Shown piece after piece: positions 4,507 through 35,754 of a stretch of 46,665 nucleotides of DNA. Source of the DNA: a virus; IMG/VR virus record IMGVR_UViG_3300037086_000473, positions 1 through 46,665 of that record; one strand, given 5' to 3'. Every line of letters begins with the position of its first letter. Positions within the stretch are counted from its first letter, which is position 1. The notes beneath the pieces are model-generated. The model was not told the DNA's origin. It did not search any database and saw only the letters and a program-made list of their open reading frames with translations. A program made the position numbers and the translations under genes.

Positions 4507-4520
4507 AAAAGATAAAGAAT
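4507..4520 (+). promoter_or_regulatory. AAAGATA motif directly before the baseplate wedge gene
   Basis: AAAAGATAAAGAAT immediately precedes ATG 4521, with no Shine-Dalgarno in between. It is one of eight occurrences in this window of AAAGATA or TAAGATA plus an AT-rich tail next to gene starts, and probably a promoter of this phage. Its position would make the baseplate genes from 4521 onward one transcription unit. Confidence 0.45.
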
Positions 4521-4883
4521 ATGAAAGGTATCGGATACTACGGTCGCGATTTTTTTGTAGTGAAATCCGACTATGATCTAGTGGCAGAATCAATCACAAG
4601 AATCTTAATGACTAATCCAAATGAACGCCCAGGTCAGCCCTATTTTGGCGTGGGGCTTAAGAACCAGATTTTTGAGCTTCTAGATGAAACGGTTATTTCG
4701 TCAATTGATGCTGCCATTAGAGAGCAGATAGGTGCCTATGAACCTAGAGCCACCATCAACTCATTATTAATGACTCCGGATTCTAACGAAAACACCCTGT
4801 CAGTCAAACTTGGCTTCACTCTTATGGGTGATAAGATAGGTGATCAAAGATTTATTAACGTGGTCTATCAACTAGGAAAATAA
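4521..4883 (+). CDS. Baseplate wedge protein, gp25-like (GPW_gp25 family)
   Basis: A 120-aa protein of the usual length for T4 gp25 and P2 gpW-type proteins, which sit in the inner baseplate wedge and help start sheath assembly. The family signature is visible: ILMTNPNERPGQPYFGVGL (residues about 29-47), matching the normal pattern of GER, a Pro and FGxGL. It is followed by an amphipathic helix with IxxAIxEQIxxYEPR (about 63-76), whose EPR is a hallmark of the family. The next gene, the J/gp6-like protein, starts 3 bases after the stop, the standard partner order in contractile tail operons. The start at 4521 gives the expected N-terminus. Confidence 0.9.
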   Translation: MKGIGYYGRDFFVVKSDYDLVAESITRILMTNPNERPGQPYFGVGLKNQIFELLDETVISSIDAAIREQIGAYEPRATINSLLMTPDSNENTLSVKLGFTLMGDKIGDQRFINVVYQLGK

Positions 4884-4886
4884 ACT

Positions 4887-7196
4887 ATGCCTACAAACAC
4901 TCTAGTATCACTCCCAAATTTCTCCTACACGTCTCTAGACTTTGACACTATCGTCAATGATGTAAAAAATTTGATAAAGGAGCATCCAGAGTATAATCAA
5001 CAATGGGATGACTTTTTGGAATCAAATGCTGGTAGAATGTTTATAGAAACAATGTCATATGTAGTAGAAAAATTGGTATCTAGAACTGATTGGCTGGCTC
5101 AAGAAATGTATATCTCAACAGCCACCCAACGACAATCTCTGATCAATCTTCTTCAGTTGATTAATCACAAACCAAAACTTCCACAAGCTTCTCTTGTTTA
5201 TATGACTCTTTCTCTTTCAAAGTGGATTGCCCCATTTAACCTTCCAATAAGAGAAGTTGTTTCAGGACTTGACACTAATGGGAATGTAATTAGTTTTGAA
5301 TGCTTGCAGCTTGCTGATGATGGAAAACCCGACTATTCTTTCATTTTTCCGGTCAATACCGGCACAGTATCAAACAAAATAACCACTATTTCAAATGTCT
5401 CCTTCTATCAAGGAGCCACCGTTACCGACACCGATATTATTATGAATGGTGTAGATAATGAAAGAGTTCTTCTTTCTAGTTTTCCAGTTATTGAAAACTC
5501 AATTAGAATTCAAGATTCGGTTAAAGGATGGGAGTTTCCAGAAGTCACCTCCTTCATTTCTCCAGTTGCACAAACTGCTAGTTATTTGGATAATAGTGTT
5601 CAACCACCAGTTACAGTGCGCATTCCACCATATATGGTTGAAATTGATGCGAACAACAAAGCTACTATTGTTTTTGGAGCCTCTTCAATTGTTCAAATTT
5701 GCACCAAGGGACAATCCCTTAGAGTTACCTACCGTGTAGGAGGTGGAGCAAATACAAACATTGTATCAAATGCGGTCAGTCAATCAAAAACTTATACTAT
5801 TGGAAGTGATAGGACGACTATTTCTTTTTCAAACCCAGAATCCGCTTTCGGCGGAGCAGATGAAGAAGACTTGGATCAAGCCAAACTAACTGCTCCAATA
5901 AGTCTAAGAAGTGCTGATAAAACTGTAACTTGGGAAGACTATGTCTCTCAATTAGAGAGTTTGACAACGGTGCTTCACGCAAATGTAGTTGGGAAAGAAA
6001 ATGAACCATCTGACATCTATGCTCAATATGGGTATAGTCTGCCTCCATTAGAAACTTGGATCTTTATAACTCCGAATAGAAGCAATTGGGCCAATATAGA
6101 TCCATATCTCTATAATAGTACTCTGCAAATAGAACGCCCATATGATATTCATGATGAATTAGATAGAGAAGACATCACTCTTACTACATCAAATCAAACT
6201 GCTTATTTGAAAAAATACAAAAAATATCAGGGGTTTAATTTGTATGTGACCTTGTCGGGACAATTAGCAGAAGCCTCCTTTGTTGAAACAACTGATTATT
6301 TTATAAACACAACCAATGGAGATTTTACCAGAGTGGCAACAGCAGAAGGTGGAACGATTCCATCTCCTGGATTGAATCAAAATGTTGTCTTGACTGTTAG
6401 ATATATAAGTGAATCTATCATAAGTTTTCGATCAAATACGGTTTTTCAATTTAATGCCAGTCACAGCTATAATGCTTCGGTTGATACCATAAGACTTGAC
6501 ACTCAACCTCAGAGTATTTATGTAAAAAAAGGTGTTAAAATAACAAACGTTTCAGGAATTACAACATATATAGAAGGTGTTGACTACAGAATCGATTATG
6601 ATCTAAACACTGTTGTACGACTTTCTTCTGGAAATATTTCAGATAATCAAATCGTAATTATAACATATGCCAACCATTGGATTCATAATCAATCATCAAA
6701 TAGTTTTGATGAATCAGAGGAGCACACAATACTCACTGCTATTGCCGACAAAAAGATGATTTGCGTCGATAATGTAATTAAAGATTCAATATACACTCCA
6801 TTTGATGTTGTAGCAAATGTTTATTGCTATAAGAACATGAGAAAAACAGTCCAAAATGGTCTTGAAGACTGGCTGAGATCTCGATACACTCTTAATCAAG
6901 TCAACTATAATACTCCACTTGTGAAATCAAGAATAATTGGAGATATGATGAATTTCAATGGTGTTAGATTTGTAGAAATAGCCTATCTTGGAAAAAACTA
7001 TGAAGCGTATCGCAGATATATTTTGAATCAAATAACATTAGATGATTTAAACACTCTAGGTGGAAACACTGTTGAATACAACATTTCTGCTCTATACAAC
7101 GAGATTTTAGTATTGGCAAACGACGAATGGGATGGGAATCAAATAGTAGAGAATAAGAGACACGGGCTCATCTTTACCTATTCAGATGCAACTTAA
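4887..7196 (+). CDS. Baseplate wedge protein, gp6 / baseplate J-like
   Basis: A 769-aa structural protein, likely the wedge component that forms the ring around the hub. The N-terminus has the typical YTSLDFDTIVNDVKNLIKEH followed by DFLESNAGRMFIETMSYVVEKL and ATQRQSLINLL, as in T4 gp6 and baseplate J proteins that begin with a helical, self-associating region. Around residues 310-370 comes FGGADEEDLDQAKLTAP, then DKTVTWEDYVSQL, the classic J-family core (GGxDEE, Ala-Pro, VTxxDY). The region after about 440 is an inserted beta-rich part (repeated YIKKYKKYQGF and VKKGVKI-type strands) that makes it longer than P2 gpJ. No Shine-Dalgarno is visible; it follows the gp25-like gene by 3 bases and is probably translationally coupled. 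Confidence 0.88.
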   Translation: MPTNTLVSLPNFSYTSLDFDTIVNDVKNLIKEHPEYNQQWDDFLESNAGRMFIETMSYVVEKLVSRTDWLAQEMYISTATQRQSLINLLQLINHKPKLPQASLVYMTLSLSKWIAPFNLPIREVVSGLDTNGNVISFECLQLADDGKPDYSFIFPVNTGTVSNKITTISNVSFYQGATVTDTDIIMNGVDNERVLLSSFPVIENSIRIQDSVKGWEFPEVTSFISPVAQTASYLDNSVQPPVTVRIPPYMVEIDANNKATIVFGASSIVQICTKGQSLRVTYRVGGGANTNIVSNAVSQSKTYTIGSDRTTISFSNPESAFGGADEEDLDQAKLTAPISLRSADKTVTWEDYVSQLESLTTVLHANVVGKENEPSDIYAQYGYSLPPLETWIFITPNRSNWANIDPYLYNSTLQIERPYDIHDELDREDITLTTSNQTAYLKKYKKYQGFNLYVTLSGQLAEASFVETTDYFINTTNGDFTRVATAEGGTIPSPGLNQNVVLTVRYISESIISFRSNTVFQFNASHSYNASVDTIRLDTQPQSIYVKKGVKITNVSGITTYIEGVDYRIDYDLNTVVRLSSGNISDNQIVIITYANHWIHNQSSNSFDESEEHTILTAIADKKMICVDNVIKDSIYTPFDVVANVYCYKNMRKTVQNGLEDWLRSRYTLNQVNYNTPLVKSRIIGDMMNFNGVRFVEIAYLGKNYEAYRRYILNQITLDDLNTLGGNTVEYNISALYNEILVLANDEWDGNQIVENKRHGLIFTYSDAT

Positions 7197-9591: not shown

Positions 9592-10440
9592 ATGATATGG
9601 AATGAGTATATCAAAGTGCCAGTTGGAAATTTGGAAATCATTGTCGAGGACCACTATTCTGGAAAACTATTACGTTATGATGACGGTCATAATCAAGTTC
9701 AAGATTGGGCTCGACACGCTCTGTCATATTTGACTGCAGGAAGACCATTTTCGACTTGGGGAAATCATGGGGATTCAATTCCAGAATCTGATCAAGTAAA
9801 TTTGGGAATCACTCATATCAAAGACAGTACTGTTGGAGCTGGAACTGACATAATTACCGTCAGTCCTTGGCAGTGGAATCAAACTACTCAGCCAATTTTT
9901 GCTGGTTTGGTGCAGACACGAAATTCTCAAGGAGCTGATATTTGGGGAGATCCTCCTGTTCCTCCAACCAACACGTCAACTCCACTATATCCATTCTATC
10001 CAACAAAAATGAGATTTGGTACAGGCGGACTCGACAACAATCAGAATCCCTTGACAAACATCTCAACACAGGCAACCAAGCTGAATGCCGCTCAGAGTAC
10101 CACTACGACATTTCCATTTGTGGTTGTTGATAGGACCAATACTAGTGTTGATGAACACATTGCTGTTAGCTCTTCGGGATCAATCGGACTTACAACTAAC
10201 AGAGTTACTTTTGCTTGTAAGCTTCCTGGAGGTACTGGAATAAATAACCAAGGAAATCCATATGATGGATATGTGATTTCTGAGGCAGGACTGTTCTGTG
10301 ATGCTGCAATAGCTCCAACAATCAACAGTGTCTTGAATTATGACATGAGAACGGGTCTTATGTTTGCCTATAGAACATTCTATGGAATTGCCAAAAATCC
10401 GTCAATAGACATAACATTTAGATGGAGTTGCAACTTTTGA
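9592..10440 (+). CDS. Baseplate or fibre-attachment protein with EAGLF motif
   Basis: A 282-aa virion-type protein starting behind a strong AAGGAG ribosome site (spacing 8). The C-terminal part has YVISEAGLFCDA, then MFAYRTFYGIAKNPSIDITFRW and a final aromatic residue. Many phage baseplate and tail-fibre-attachment proteins end with this sort of pattern (SEAGLF, a TF step, IxxxW near the end). The N-terminus has the DDGHNQVQDWARHALSYL helix also typical of such proteins. Function beyond a tail role is not visible. The last ten codons are repeated out of frame right after the stop, see 10408-10468. It is the last gene of the baseplate block before the endonuclease insertion. Confidence 0.6.
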   Translation: MIWNEYIKVPVGNLEIIVEDHYSGKLLRYDDGHNQVQDWARHALSYLTAGRPFSTWGNHGDSIPESDQVNLGITHIKDSTVGAGTDIITVSPWQWNQTTQPIFAGLVQTRNSQGADIWGDPPVPPTNTSTPLYPFYPTKMRFGTGGLDNNQNPLTNISTQATKLNAAQSTTTTFPFVVVDRTNTSVDEHIAVSSSGSIGLTTNRVTFACKLPGGTGINNQGNPYDGYVISEAGLFCDAAIAPTINSVLNYDMRTGLMFAYRTFYGIAKNPSIDITFRWSCNF

Positions 10441-10468
10441 CATCACATTTAGATGGTCTATTAACTAA
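10408..10468 (+). repeat. Out-of-frame near-copy of the gene's C-terminal codons
   Basis: GACATAACATTTAGATGG (10408-10425) recurs as GACATCACATTTAGATGG (10439-10456), 31 bases later. The first copy encodes DITFRWSCNF-stop, the second DITFRWSIN-stop (TAA at 10466-10468). The second begins inside the stop codon of the first and is out of frame, so it is untranslated debris directly before the endonuclease gene. Confidence 0.7.
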
Positions 10469-10509
10469 TTGTTAATTTAATTGTAATACCAAAATAATGT
10501 AACATTGAC

Positions 10510-10548
10510 AAACTCCTTGTAAGATAATTATATACTTACAAGGAGTTT
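10510..10548 (+). promoter_or_regulatory. Perfect 14-bp hairpin hiding the endonuclease ribosome site
   Basis: AAACTCCTTGTAAG (10510-10523) is the exact reverse complement of CTTACAAGGAGTTT (10535-10548), with an 11-nt loop. The right arm contains AAGGAG, the ribosome site for the ATG at 10551, so read-through transcripts would hide it. The left arm and loop contain TAAGATAATTATATAC, the AAAGATA-type motif seen at other gene starts. A transcript starting from it would lack most of the left arm and expose the site. The right arm is followed by T residues (10546-10550), so the hairpin could also act as a terminator for the baseplate block. Confidence 0.65.
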
Positions 10549-10550
10549 TT

Positions 10551-11513
10551 ATGCACTCAAAAAAAATCTTAAGATCATTAAAGTTCGAACACATAGTTGT
10601 ATGTCAAATATGCGGATCAGAATCTACCAAAAGCATCCAGAATCATATTAGATTTAATCATCCAGAAATTAGTATTATGGGGTATATGGAAAAATATGAT
10701 GCTGAAATGATGACTGAGGACGCTAAAAAAGTTAGGGCTGAAAAAAATATTGGGAAAAATAGTGGTAGAATTCAAACAGAAGAAGAAAAAATAATTAGAT
10801 CTGAAAGCAACAAAAGAGTGTGGGCCGACAACCCCGAATTGGTAGAAAATGCTAGAATAAGAGCCAAAAAGCGTACAGAAGAGGGAACAAATCCTCTTCA
10901 ATCAGAAACAGTAAAAGAAAAAAATCGTCAACGTATTACTATTAGAAACAAAACTGAAGAAGCAAGAATCAAGAGTAGAGAAAATGCGTACAAATATTTC
11001 TTTACGGAAGAAGCCATCAGCAAATCGGCTCAAAATAGAATTGGATTAAAACAATCAGAAGAAACAAAGAAAAAAAGATCTAATACTGTTCTCCAACAAT
11101 TTCAAAATGGCAGAAAAGCCCCTCATTCTAAAATCATAGGTACTTATACATCTAAAAAAACTGGTCAAAAATGTTCTTATAGGAGTTTATTTGAACTAAA
11201 GTATTTTCAAATTCTTGATAATGATCCAAGTATTTTGTTTTGGATATATGAGCCTATTTCTATTTCCTATGATTTTGAAGAAGGGGTTCACATCTATTAT
11301 CCAGATATTCTTGCTAACAATAGAGAATTAATCGAGATTAAATCAAAATACTATTGGTTTATGGATAGAGAAAAATGTGAAGCAAAAGCCAAAGCAGCAC
11401 GGCAATATTGCAAAGAACATCATTTAATATATAAAATACTGTACGAGGAAGACTTAGGCATGTCATTAAATTGTGCAGAGCTAGTCAAAAACTACAATTT
11501 TCCAAGAGAATAA
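10551..11513 (+). CDS. Probable homing endonuclease, zinc finger + PD-(D/E)XK
   Basis: A 320-aa protein. At the N-terminus a C2H2-type finger is visible (C18, C21, H32, H37). Residues about 50-190 are Lys/Arg/Glu-rich and repetitive, with recurring SEETKKK-type segments similar to the NUMOD3 DNA-contact modules of phage homing enzymes. The C-terminal 120 residues look like a PD-(D/E)XK nuclease: SLFE (E215), then YYPDILANN (P251-D252) and IEIKSK (E262, K264), the order found in TnsA/Vsr-like folds. It stands alone between structural blocks and has a hairpin-controlled start. A debris copy of the neighbour's end lies upstream. Together these fit a mobile endonuclease. The family assignment is by motif only. 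Confidence 0.7.
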   Translation: MHSKKILRSLKFEHIVVCQICGSESTKSIQNHIRFNHPEISIMGYMEKYDAEMMTEDAKKVRAEKNIGKNSGRIQTEEEKIIRSESNKRVWADNPELVENARIRAKKRTEEGTNPLQSETVKEKNRQRITIRNKTEEARIKSRENAYKYFFTEEAISKSAQNRIGLKQSEETKKKRSNTVLQQFQNGRKAPHSKIIGTYTSKKTGQKCSYRSLFELKYFQILDNDPSILFWIYEPISISYDFEEGVHIYYPDILANNRELIEIKSKYYWFMDREKCEAKAKAARQYCKEHHLIYKILYEEDLGMSLNCAELVKNYNFPRE

Positions 11514-11528
11514 ACCACTAAGTTTTAG

Positions 11529-11540
11529 AAAGATACTTAT
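11529..11540 (+). promoter_or_regulatory. AAAGATA motif abutting ATG 11541
   Basis: AAAGATACTTAT lies directly before the ATG, giving AAAGATAnnTATATG with no Shine-Dalgarno. It restarts expression after the endonuclease gene and would drive the chain of overlapping small genes from 11541. Confidence 0.5.
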
Positions 11541-11774
11541 ATGAACTTTGGTAATGTAATTGTAGAGTTGGCCAGCAGAGAAGATCTCAAAGCTTGGAAT
11601 ATGGAACAAAGGGCTATTCTCTCTAAGATGATTAGAGACCATATTCTCGACAAAACAAGCTCCAATTTTGTAGATCGGGTCCAAACTTTTGCCAAATTCT
11701 TTGCCGACTATTTCAATTCACACGGCGAAACCCCATCAGTCAAGGAAGCTGAGAATTTTATGAAGGTTGTCTAA
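11541..11774 (+). CDS. Small helical hypothetical protein
   Basis: A 77-aa protein I do not recognise, mostly predicted helix by eye (ELASREDLKAW, ILSKMIRDHILD, FAKFFADYF). It has no cysteines or membrane segment. The start is set by the AAAGATA motif and by the lack of another ATG before residue 21. Its stop shares one base with the next start (TAATG), so it heads a coupled series of six small genes. Confidence 0.55.
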   Translation: MNFGNVIVELASREDLKAWNMEQRAILSKMIRDHILDKTSSNFVDRVQTFAKFFADYFNSHGETPSVKEAENFMKVV

Positions 11775-29043: not shown

Positions 29044-29457
29044 ATGAAACTATTTACAGTACCAAATTGTGAGAGCTGTGATAGGGTGGTGTCCCATATA
29101 CAAGAAAATAACAAAAATGTTGAAAAAATTGAATTGGAACTAATCGAAAACAAATGGTGTCAATTAATTGATGGACACATGGTTCCAATAGATGAGAAAC
29201 TTACTTCTTTTCCATCTTTAATGGTTGGAGCCAAAGACAACATAAACTATTACATCTACGGCGATACTGGGTGTATTAGCTATATAGAAAAGGGTTTTTT
29301 ACATGATATAAAAACGTGTCCATTTTTAAATTCGAATTGCATAGAGAATAAATGTGAAAAATTTGTGATAATGAATAAGGGTTTGATTGCCGAGGGTAGT
29401 TGTGCTGATACTTGGACACCCATTTTACTCACTAAGCTTATTTCTCGAGGAGAATGA
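29044..29457 (+). CDS. Glutaredoxin/thioredoxin-like protein with extra Cys module
   Basis: A 137-aa protein with a thioredoxin-fold core: MKLFTVPNCESCDRVVSHI carries the CxxC active pair (C9, C12) after the first strand, and SFPSLMVG (Pro57) supplies the cis-proline. This is the glutaredoxin arrangement. The C-terminal 50 residues add CPF at C92, C99, C104 and C120, in a spacing seen in small zinc- or cluster-binding modules. It starts 1 base after the fibre stop and ends 1 base before the next fibre start, so it is embedded in the fibre operon. It may reduce or isomerise disulphides during fibre folding, or bind metal. Which one is not shown. Confidence 0.6.
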   Translation: MKLFTVPNCESCDRVVSHIQENNKNVEKIELELIENKWCQLIDGHMVPIDEKLTSFPSLMVGAKDNINYYIYGDTGCISYIEKGFLHDIKTCPFLNSNCIENKCEKFVIMNKGLIAEGSCADTWTPILLTKLISRGE

Positions 29458-29458
29458 A

Positions 29459-31582
29459 ATGACTATAGAGCCTAAAGCATTGATAATGTGGGAGAATACT
29501 GCTGAAACACCTCTTGATTCTTCACATTTGTCAAAAGCAATAGATTTTCAAACAGACTCTAAATTCATAACATATGTAAATAATAGTGACACGAGCTTGC
29601 TCGATACTATTACTATCAATGGTACTATTTTCAACAATATTACCACTACTACTTATGCGCTATGGGCAGATGCCATATACACCATCGCTTGGCCTTCTAG
29701 TCCAACGAGTGATGCTCAAGTAAATAAGAAAATATATAACACAACAACACAAGATGTTAAAATTGGCCAGAAAAATGGACCCAATTATAGTTGGATTACT
29801 TCAACCTCCCCATATCAAAAACTATTGAAAATAGCTGCTAAGTCTAAGTTTTCTTTAACATATACGAATATCAATACCAATAGTTTAGTTTATGCCAATT
29901 TTGATGTCGGATCTGATCCAATAGTTCTTTCAATTGAGAGTCTTCTCATAAATTCAGTCAATACAGATTTTTCTCCATCTACGAGCTATGTAATTTATCT
30001 ATATTGGTTGAAATCCTATGGAAATTATGCCTATTTTAAGATAGTTAAGGCAACTGAAGATACAGCCAATACTAATAATTGGAAACAGGGAGGAGTATCC
30101 CAATCAGATACTGGAATAGACTCTACTAGTCCTAGTGGTTATAAAGTAATAGCTTTGAGAAAAGTTGGAGGATTCAAAACAACTGCAGATTCTTCTCCTC
30201 CAAAAATTGATCCGAACAGCGTGTGGGACATTTCAACCTATCACAAAGAGGTTACTTCTGAGGCCTTTAAGATTTTTGATCCCACATTATCCCAAACCAG
30301 AAGTTTGAATGCCTCTGATATCCCAATAGTGGATGTTGGCAACAAATTCAATGCAGCAGACATAGAAATGGCTTTAAATGAGACGAAGATTGTAGTAGAT
30401 CAACTAAACAATGACATGTACAAAACTCAGGATAGATTTGGAGTAGAGCTCAAATTCAGTAAATTGAAATGGAATTCTATTGCCAATTCCCTGTCAGAGA
30501 CTCTTACCAGCGATATCTCTTTGAAAATTACTGCAGGATATATCAACATTGTAGACAGAAGAATTACTGTAGATTCTAATCCAACTCTTCCAATCACCAA
30601 TCCTAGCTATCACGATCTCTATCTTCAGGGTGCCCCACTAGTTATTAACAATAATTCAACTACAACTCCTCGAACGGACATAATTTTAGGACAAAGAGAT
30701 CCTAGTGGAACAGACACGAGACTCTATGAAGGTGTTTGGAGAGTTTATATAGGTGGAACTGGTCAAATTTTCTTGAAAGAAAGTAATGTTGTGACTCCAA
30801 AATATTCTTCAACATATCATGGTTGGTATGATATGGGCAATGGTGCACGATGTATCGGCAAGTTTAAGGTTACAAACAATGGTGGCTATTACATAGAAAA
30901 AATGTCAATTATAAATACCTATGATGAAAACATTCCAACTAATGTTGTCATTATGGTACATGGAACCATGTGTCCGGACGGAATGGTTCCATGTGACGGA
31001 ATGTGGCACGATATTAATGGATATAATCTAAATTCTTACCCCAATATGCCATTATTTTCAAACTCAGCCCCAAATCCAAATTGGCAAAATGGAAGCTGGT
31101 GGGAGGAAACTCCAAACATGTGGGGAAGAACTATAAAGATGATTGGAACATCTACGGGTGTTGCTCCAACTTTGCCATATGCTACTAATAGGTTTAGTTA
31201 TGATTCTGCAACAGGTCAAGTTATTTCGGGCGGAAGTGCGGATGTGGGCATTTCTTCTGGAAGCGACATACACACTCATAATTACGTGCATCAACATACT
31301 GGTGGAACCCTTTCAACATCAGATCCTGGAACGCACACCCACCAATCAACTGATGTGCACATTCAACCACCAGAATCTACAGAACAGGTAGTTGGTGGTA
31401 CTGGAAAATATGTAGCTAGTTCTCAGCATGCCCACGTTGGATCAACAACAACTGGTGGAGCACATACGCATGGACCTCCATATACTTTTGGTGGAGCAAC
31501 GGCGGATCCAATACAGTCAACTACTGATTCTAATAGTTCTTGGTCACCATACAAAGAAATTCTTTTTTGCATAAAGAAATAG
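29459..31582 (+). CDS. Tail fibre, WEN-motif class, with HxH-rich collar-like C-terminus
   Basis: A 707-aa fibre. I choose ATG 29459 because GAGGAGAATGAA ends just before it and the shared motif ALIMWENTAETPLDSSHLSK follows directly. The longer open frame from 29387 would read through the previous gene. The C-terminal 220 residues have GTMCPDGMVPCDG, as in tail-collar (PF07484-like) and microcystin-dependent proteins. A His-rich tip follows: HTHNYVHQH, THTHQSTDVH, HAH and HTHG, likely metal-binding as in T4 fibre needles. The middle is a beta-rich shaft with no recognised domain. Together with its neighbours it forms a series of three fibres of one class. Confidence 0.75.
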   Translation: MTIEPKALIMWENTAETPLDSSHLSKAIDFQTDSKFITYVNNSDTSLLDTITINGTIFNNITTTTYALWADAIYTIAWPSSPTSDAQVNKKIYNTTTQDVKIGQKNGPNYSWITSTSPYQKLLKIAAKSKFSLTYTNINTNSLVYANFDVGSDPIVLSIESLLINSVNTDFSPSTSYVIYLYWLKSYGNYAYFKIVKATEDTANTNNWKQGGVSQSDTGIDSTSPSGYKVIALRKVGGFKTTADSSPPKIDPNSVWDISTYHKEVTSEAFKIFDPTLSQTRSLNASDIPIVDVGNKFNAADIEMALNETKIVVDQLNNDMYKTQDRFGVELKFSKLKWNSIANSLSETLTSDISLKITAGYINIVDRRITVDSNPTLPITNPSYHDLYLQGAPLVINNNSTTTPRTDIILGQRDPSGTDTRLYEGVWRVYIGGTGQIFLKESNVVTPKYSSTYHGWYDMGNGARCIGKFKVTNNGGYYIEKMSIINTYDENIPTNVVIMVHGTMCPDGMVPCDGMWHDINGYNLNSYPNMPLFSNSAPNPNWQNGSWWEETPNMWGRTIKMIGTSTGVAPTLPYATNRFSYDSATGQVISGGSADVGISSGSDIHTHNYVHQHTGGTLSTSDPGTHTHQSTDVHIQPPESTEQVVGGTGKYVASSQHAHVGSTTTGGAHTHGPPYTFGGATADPIQSTTDSNSSWSPYKEILFCIKK

Positions 31583-35076: not shown

Positions 35077-35754
35077 ATGAGCGAAATTACACTAGAAACA
35101 GTTGCAGAGAGCATTGAAAAATTAGAAGACAGTATCATCTCTGATGTTACGGAGCTAAAAACATCAACGGAGATGATACTGAAAGAGCTGACTGGGTATC
35201 TCAACATATCATCTCAGAATCTCACCGATGTTCAAACAACTACTATAAAAATAGACACCACTCTCGCCTCTTTCAAAGATTACTTGCTAAAATTGGACTT
35301 CATAGAGAAAAAATTCATAGAACTTCCACAGAAATTCTATGAACTTGGAGAACAGATAAAACATGTTTCTGAGGCACAGATTCGCTCCGACAAATACGCT
35401 GAAAATGTGGCCGCTTATCTGAAAAGAATGGCCGCGTACATGCAGCAACAAAATACTAAATTTAGTGAGATTTCCAACAATGTTGAAAATTTGACTATAG
35501 CGTATAGTGCTACAAAGGAAGAGATTATGAAGAGTCAAGACAATCTCTTCCACCTGATCAAGACCATTATCACTAGCAAAGAAAATACAGAGGGTGCCAA
35601 AATTGATCTTCAGAAAAGTCAAATCAAACAAAGTGGTGACATAACAAAGACAAAATTCAAATTCTGGGCAAAGATTCTTGGGCTGTTATTGGGATCTGGA
35701 GGAGTCGTGGTTTTGATAGTTGAATTCGTTATTCAAATGTTGAGCAAGAAATGA
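35077..35754 (+). CDS. Coiled-coil protein with C-terminal membrane anchor
   Basis: A 225-aa protein. Residues about 1-190 are long amphipathic helices, likely coiled coils (SIEKLEDSIISDVTELK, FIEKKFIELPQKFYELGEQI, NVENLTIAYSATKEEIM). Residues about 196-221 (FWAKILGLLLGSGGVVVLIV and following) are hydrophobic, followed by KK, a tail-anchor arrangement. There is no signal peptide. It may tether a tail or lysis component to the membrane, or act as an infection-time membrane factor. A holin is less likely given the single late segment and long coil. The next gene overlaps by 4 bases (ATGA), so the two are probably partners. Confidence 0.6.
   Translation: MSEITLETVAESIEKLEDSIISDVTELKTSTEMILKELTGYLNISSQNLTDVQTTTIKIDTTLASFKDYLLKLDFIEKKFIELPQKFYELGEQIKHVSEAQIRSDKYAENVAAYLKRMAAYMQQQNTKFSEISNNVENLTIAYSATKEEIMKSQDNLFHLIKTIITSKENTEGAKIDLQKSQIKQSGDITKTKFKFWAKILGLLLGSGGVVVLIVEFVIQMLSKK

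Follow-up and report, generated by a model that had tools for sequence, protein, structure and literature searches.

A candidate promoter inside a Shine-Dalgarno hairpin precedes a putative homing endonuclease gene in a distant T4-related phage

INTRODUCTION

Hairpins that hold the Shine-Dalgarno sequence of upstream-initiated RNA occur at the gene for the T4 endonuclease I-TevI and at mobE of Aeromonas phage Aeh1, and at both of these genes late transcripts lack the left arm of the hairpin and are translated (PMC2988022). Hairpin control is established for the T4 lysozyme gene e and implicated for T4 segB (PMC3014915, PMC2988022). At gene e a late promoter lies in the DNA of the hairpin 5′ strand (PMC3014915), and segB, which codes for a free-standing endonuclease, has its Shine-Dalgarno in a hairpin and a predicted late promoter in the left arm.

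We describe a similarly built locus in a 46,665-bp viral record, which was analyzed whole (the window) and is without close relatives in the collections searched. Judging by sequence, its T4-like baseplate genes (gp25-like at 4521 and gp6-like at 4887) identify the virus as a distant T4-related phage. The original prediction for this locus invoked T4 as precedent for control by a hairpin, and the literature bears this out for I-TevI, segB, Aeh1 mobE, and gene e (PMC2988022, PMC3014915). The locus resembles segB further in having 22 to 24 nt from promoter end to ATG and a similar energy switch; however, segB has an ATAAATA promoter (AAGATA here), codes for a GIY-YIG nuclease, and lies among tRNA genes and not after a baseplate block. 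I-TevI, also a GIY-YIG nuclease, is intron-encoded, and has early or middle upstream RNA, where the present locus probably has late RNA; mobE codes for an HNH nuclease and lies in a ribonucleotide reductase gene; and gene e is not an endonuclease gene and has two tandem late promoters.

RESULTS

A perfect inverted repeat encloses the ribosome site

The ATG at 10551 is preceded by an inverted repeat with arms AAACTCCTTGTAAG (10510-10523) and CTTACAAGGAGTTT (10535-10548), complementary at 14/14 positions and separated by an 11-nt loop (Table 1). With loops of 3 to 20 nt allowed, no other perfect inverted repeat in the window is as long, and perfect repeats with arms of at least 14 arose in none of 300 dinucleotide shuffles of the window. 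The local fold has an energy of -19.2 kcal/mol (z = -6.5), a stability equaled by none of 200 shuffles. The claim that such a repeat hides AAGGAG 5 bases from the ATG is exact by sequence, and in the predicted fold of an upstream-initiated RNA this Shine-Dalgarno is paired within the stable hairpin. A search of IMG/VR for the exact hairpin pattern gave no match, and a search of the window for known RNA families and tRNAs found none. The second-longest perfect inverted repeat in the window (12 bp, 13-nt loop) is at 30958-30994, within a 731-aa ORF (29387-31582).

Table 1. Features of the hairpin locus and related sites in the window
Feature	Position	Strand	Remarks
AAAGATA	4508-4514	+	Precedes the gp25-like gene; may be the promoter of the upstream baseplate block
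Upstream gene of baseplate block	9592-10440	+	Follows gp25-, gp6-, and Tail_P2_I-like genes
Left arm	10510-10523	+	Anti-Shine-Dalgarno CTCCTT and first bases of the promoter-like motif; complementary to 10535-10548
Promoter-like TAAGATA	10520-10526	+	Spans left arm and loop
Hairpin loop	10524-10534	+	Holds the putative transcript start (about 10532 if T4 late promoters are a guide)
Right arm	10535-10548	+	Contains AAGGAG (10540-10545)
T-run TTTTT	10546-10550	+	Between AAGGAG and ATG; marginal intrinsic-terminator tail (Carafa-type d = 0.7)
Putative free-standing homing endonuclease gene	10551-11513	+	320 aa; zinc-finger-like N-terminus, helical linker, TnsA-like PD-(D/E)XK domain
AAAGATA	11529-11535	+	5 nt ahead of the ATG of the following gene (11541)
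Gap sites of [AT]AAGATA	4508, 10520, 11529, 13884, 35065, 45716	+	The six gaps that carry the motif

With TTTTT behind it, the hairpin might mainly be an intrinsic terminator closing the baseplate transcript, its overlap with the ribosome site being secondary, and only transcripts begun inside the hairpin would then contain the endonuclease gene. It is the sole plus-strand candidate in the window by a Carafa-type score, and T4 mobE and segF have terminators at their 5′ ends, that of mobE being weak (PMC2988022). We nonetheless regard this reading as unlikely: the score is at threshold, the tail has five Ts, the stem is low in GC (5/14 pairs), the loop is large, and a standard scan did not detect the hairpin. 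Moreover, the Shine-Dalgarno falls precisely within the right arm, 5 nt ahead of the ATG, and a T-run is not a constant feature of the device at other genes (L109, L330). The T-run may, as suggested, terminate some of the baseplate transcript, the hairpin being unique on the plus strand of the window but at threshold in its d value. The only minus-strand terminator-like hairpin (35313-35344, d = 5.3) lies within an ORF at 35077-35754.

Predicted opening energies depend on where the RNA starts

The ribosome site of the 10551 gene is the least accessible of the 34 starts in the window: positions -14 to -4 need 17.95 kcal/mol to be opened, with 8.1 kcal/mol at the next highest and about 3 to 4 at most others. 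If the RNA starts at 10512 or further upstream, opening AAGGAG costs about 13 to 16 kcal/mol (14.7 for read-through RNA), and for starts at or after 10520, the exact start of the motif TAAGATA, it costs about 2.9 kcal/mol. The same calculation applied to positive controls gave a fall from 13.7 to 4.2 kcal/mol for T4 gene e and from 11.9 to 4.6 for T4 segB. With the start placed 6 nt beyond AAGATA, as in T4, transcription would begin at 10532 and the leader would be about 19 nt. That a short transcript would lose the left arm and free its ribosome site is thus upheld as a prediction from energies (about 15 to 2.9 kcal/mol).

We favor a translation gate with its promoter inside the hairpin, standing before a free-standing phage homing endonuclease gene, and put its probability at roughly two in three. 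Read-through RNA from the baseplate genes would hold both arms, form the 14-bp hairpin, and hide AAGGAG, so that the endonuclease would hardly be translated from it; part of this RNA may also terminate at the T-run. An AAGATA-type promoter in the left arm and loop would instead yield RNA without the left arm, with a short leader and a free ribosome site, from which the endonuclease would be translated. Synthesis of the endonuclease would thereby depend on its own promoter and not on read-through.

AAGATA motifs are placed in gaps before genes

Window-wide over-representation of AAAGATA was considered and rejected (14 seen, 15.2 expected), and what is unusual is placement only. On the plus strand, 6/15 [AT]AAGATA sites are in intergenic DNA, which makes up 1.6% of the window, and on the minus strand none of 11 is intergenic. 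Ten gaps upstream of genes measure 20 bp or more, and six of them carry the motif, compared with a mean of 0.35 and a maximum of 3 in shuffles (n = 3,000). When no motif was preset, AAGATA was the 6-mer in most gaps (again six of ten), and a 6-mer shared by six gaps arose in just 2 of 3,000 shuffled sets; the motif, which is AT-rich, was defined on this single 46.7-kb fragment. Because it occupies so many gaps relative to the shuffle mean, AAGATA is probably a promoter of this phage and likely the counterpart of the T4 late promoter. The expectation that left arm and loop bear an AAAGATA-type motif was correct, in that TAAGATA is the phage's own intergenic motif.

The T4 late ATAAATA (TATAAATA type) is absent from all intergenic gaps of the window. 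The hairpin here carries TAAGATA and not TATAAATA, a sequence that defines the T4 version of the arrangement and not its principle. We found no earlier description of this promoter motif in the literature searched under TAAGATA.

Sites at 4509, 11530, and 35066 place AAGATA 5 to 6 nt before the ATG of three genes, whose messages would be leaderless if the start point is T4-like. An exact TTGACA (10505-10510) lies just 5′ of the hairpin with an 18-nt spacer to TATATA (10529-10534); together these are a possible host-type promoter, one that would start near the Shine-Dalgarno itself.

If AAGATA were incidental, the hairpin could still gate translation and be opened by another trigger, such as RNase processing or a host or phage RNA-binding protein. 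RNase E processing at T4 segB and an RNase E-like site at Aeh1 mobE (PMC2988022) offer models for this, and the promoter status of AAGATA is itself only probable. We think such a trigger very unlikely, as the motif recurs strongly upstream of genes and is placed so that a T4-like start removes the whole left arm.

The original prediction had gone on to early silencing and late translation. This timing is not implied for the proposed gate, as the same motif (4508) precedes the baseplate block (gp25-like, 4521), and read-through and short transcripts may therefore share one class. The upstream RNA here is probably late, and the device would serve to shield the gene from read-through and not to time its expression; insulation is the safer statement.

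The downstream gene codes for a TnsA-like nuclease

The C-terminal domain of the 10551-11513 product matches the Pfam TnsA-like N family (1.1e-8) and also T4 gp4-like proteins. Its nuclease part is 30 to 37% identical to T4 gp4-like head completion proteins and to the HY03 and PspYZU05 endonucleases. These last have the same TnsA-like PD-(D/E)XK domain and are encoded between two TerL gene pieces, although in both of them the endonuclease gene overlaps its neighbors and therefore has no such leader. The fold retains its catalytic residues, E215, D252, E262, and K264 being invariant in the nuclease-domain comparison. An AlphaFold model (mean pLDDT 77, and >90 over most of the nuclease part) matches Tn7 TnsA (1f1z/1t0f) with a Foldseek probability of 1.00. 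Residues 18-37 have a zinc-finger-like CxxC-H-H pattern followed by long helices, and no Pfam DNA-binding domain was matched. Of the predicted homing endonuclease, the nuclease gene, with TnsA-like fold and intact catalytic residues, is thus present, and a free-standing homing role is plausible from sequence and model.

Searches of phages, IMG/VR, and genome contigs brought up no useful close relative of the endonuclease or of the genes upstream, nor a near relative of the locus in which compensatory stem changes could be sought. A profile search returned mostly T4 gp4-like head-completion proteins and one real endonuclease relative, L037. This nearest true relative is free-standing, downstream of a gene read as coding for a capsid protein, and its start is without a Shine-Dalgarno hairpin.

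The 320-aa ORF sits between gene 9592-10440 and the gene at 11541. The 3′ end of the former is duplicated after its stop (10408-10425 and 10439-10456, 17/18 nt identical), coding for DITFRWSCNF-stop in frame and DITFRWSIN-stop in the relic, with synonymous differences ATA/ATC and AGT/TCT. It resembles the diverged remnant of a gene end after insertion of an endonuclease, a likeness that is suggestive only; because the duplicate looks like an insertion relic, the homing target may be this 3′ end. The collections searched yielded no relative in which this site is empty. On the other side, the gene at 11541 keeps its own AAAGATA, which would allow its expression independently of the insertion, so that the insertion need not silence it.

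Hairpins of the same design precede other genes in IMG/VR

We scanned IMG/VR with the pattern CTCCT...ATAAATA...AAGGAG, in which a T4-type late promoter lies in the left arm or loop; the pattern itself forces the outer 5 to 6 pairs, and only the extra pairs and the neighboring genes are informative. Genes directly after such hairpins include endonuclease-like ones of several families: L262 (DUF7487, to which the endonuclease of 10551-11513 is a weak match as well), L109 (DUF4379), L330 (DUF559), L253 (HNH), and L305 (HNH, weak). L309, HNH-like by inspection with no Pfam match, has a T-run and then the ATG, as here. In this set, opening costs 11 to 17 kcal/mol on read-through RNA and 0.1 to 3.4 on short RNA, ranges within which both values for the 10551 gene (14.7 and 2.9) fall; a further candidate, L303, is weaker (4.8). 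T4-like late genes also follow ATAAATA hairpins, with at least eight for head-tail adaptor, at least six for tail tube, and at least two for baseplate hub. Neck (head-tail adaptor) and tail tube genes with the device are L282, L220, L232, L288, L280, L295, L299, L320, L227, L216, L238, and L284.

The inverted repeat could also act as DNA, a palindromic operator through which the endonuclease or a dimeric regulator represses its own transcription in the manner of I-TevI. The 14-bp palindrome is centered on the promoter-like motif, and I-TevI binds an operator over its late promoter, as I-TevII and I-TevIII are thought to do (PMC2988022). Yet the arms coincide with the Shine-Dalgarno and anti-Shine-Dalgarno, which an operator does not need, and the same arms recur before unrelated endonucleases and structural genes; we judge an operator highly improbable.

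The notion that AAGATA is a promoter class of phages generally was unsupported when the hairpin patterns were compared in IMG/VR: 26/99 listed matches to CTCCTT-AAGATA-AAGGAG lie before a start with an ORF of at least 50 aa, versus 58/106 listed matches to the ATAAATA version. A stem helix of at least 9 was seen in 20/57 cases, versus 3/20 for the control motif AATAATA, a small comparison among the matches listed that points the same way.

DISCUSSION

By its construction the locus falls in the T4 hairpin-gated class, though both its promoter motif and its type of nuclease are different, and we infer that it works in that way. In favor of the gate are a hairpin beyond chance, the energy switch, the T4 controls, the recurrence of the motif, the nuclease gene, the parallels elsewhere, and published precedent. 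Against it are the nearest endonuclease relative, L037, which has no hairpin, the AT-richness of the motif and its derivation from a single fragment, and the TTGACA upstream.

We tentatively suggest, as a possibility that we hold to be somewhat less than even, that the promoter inside a Shine-Dalgarno hairpin is a general and repeatedly invented module of T4-related phages. In each lineage the left arm would be made from the late-promoter motif of that lineage, ATAAATA or AAGATA, and the module would let many late structural genes (neck, tail tube, hub), like endonuclease genes of unrelated families, ignore read-through RNA; in this phage such promoters would also stand 5 to 6 nt before some starts and give leaderless messages.

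With this locus, a control described for endonucleases of T4 and Aeh1 would reach a distant T4-related phage that has another promoter motif and a TnsA-like nuclease. The locus also suggests that insulation of this kind from read-through has been gained repeatedly by selfish endonuclease genes. AAGATA is a testable late-promoter candidate for an uncultured phage lineage, and, with the device also standing before several T4-like structural genes, what such hairpins do in late gene clusters could be tested in cultivated phages.
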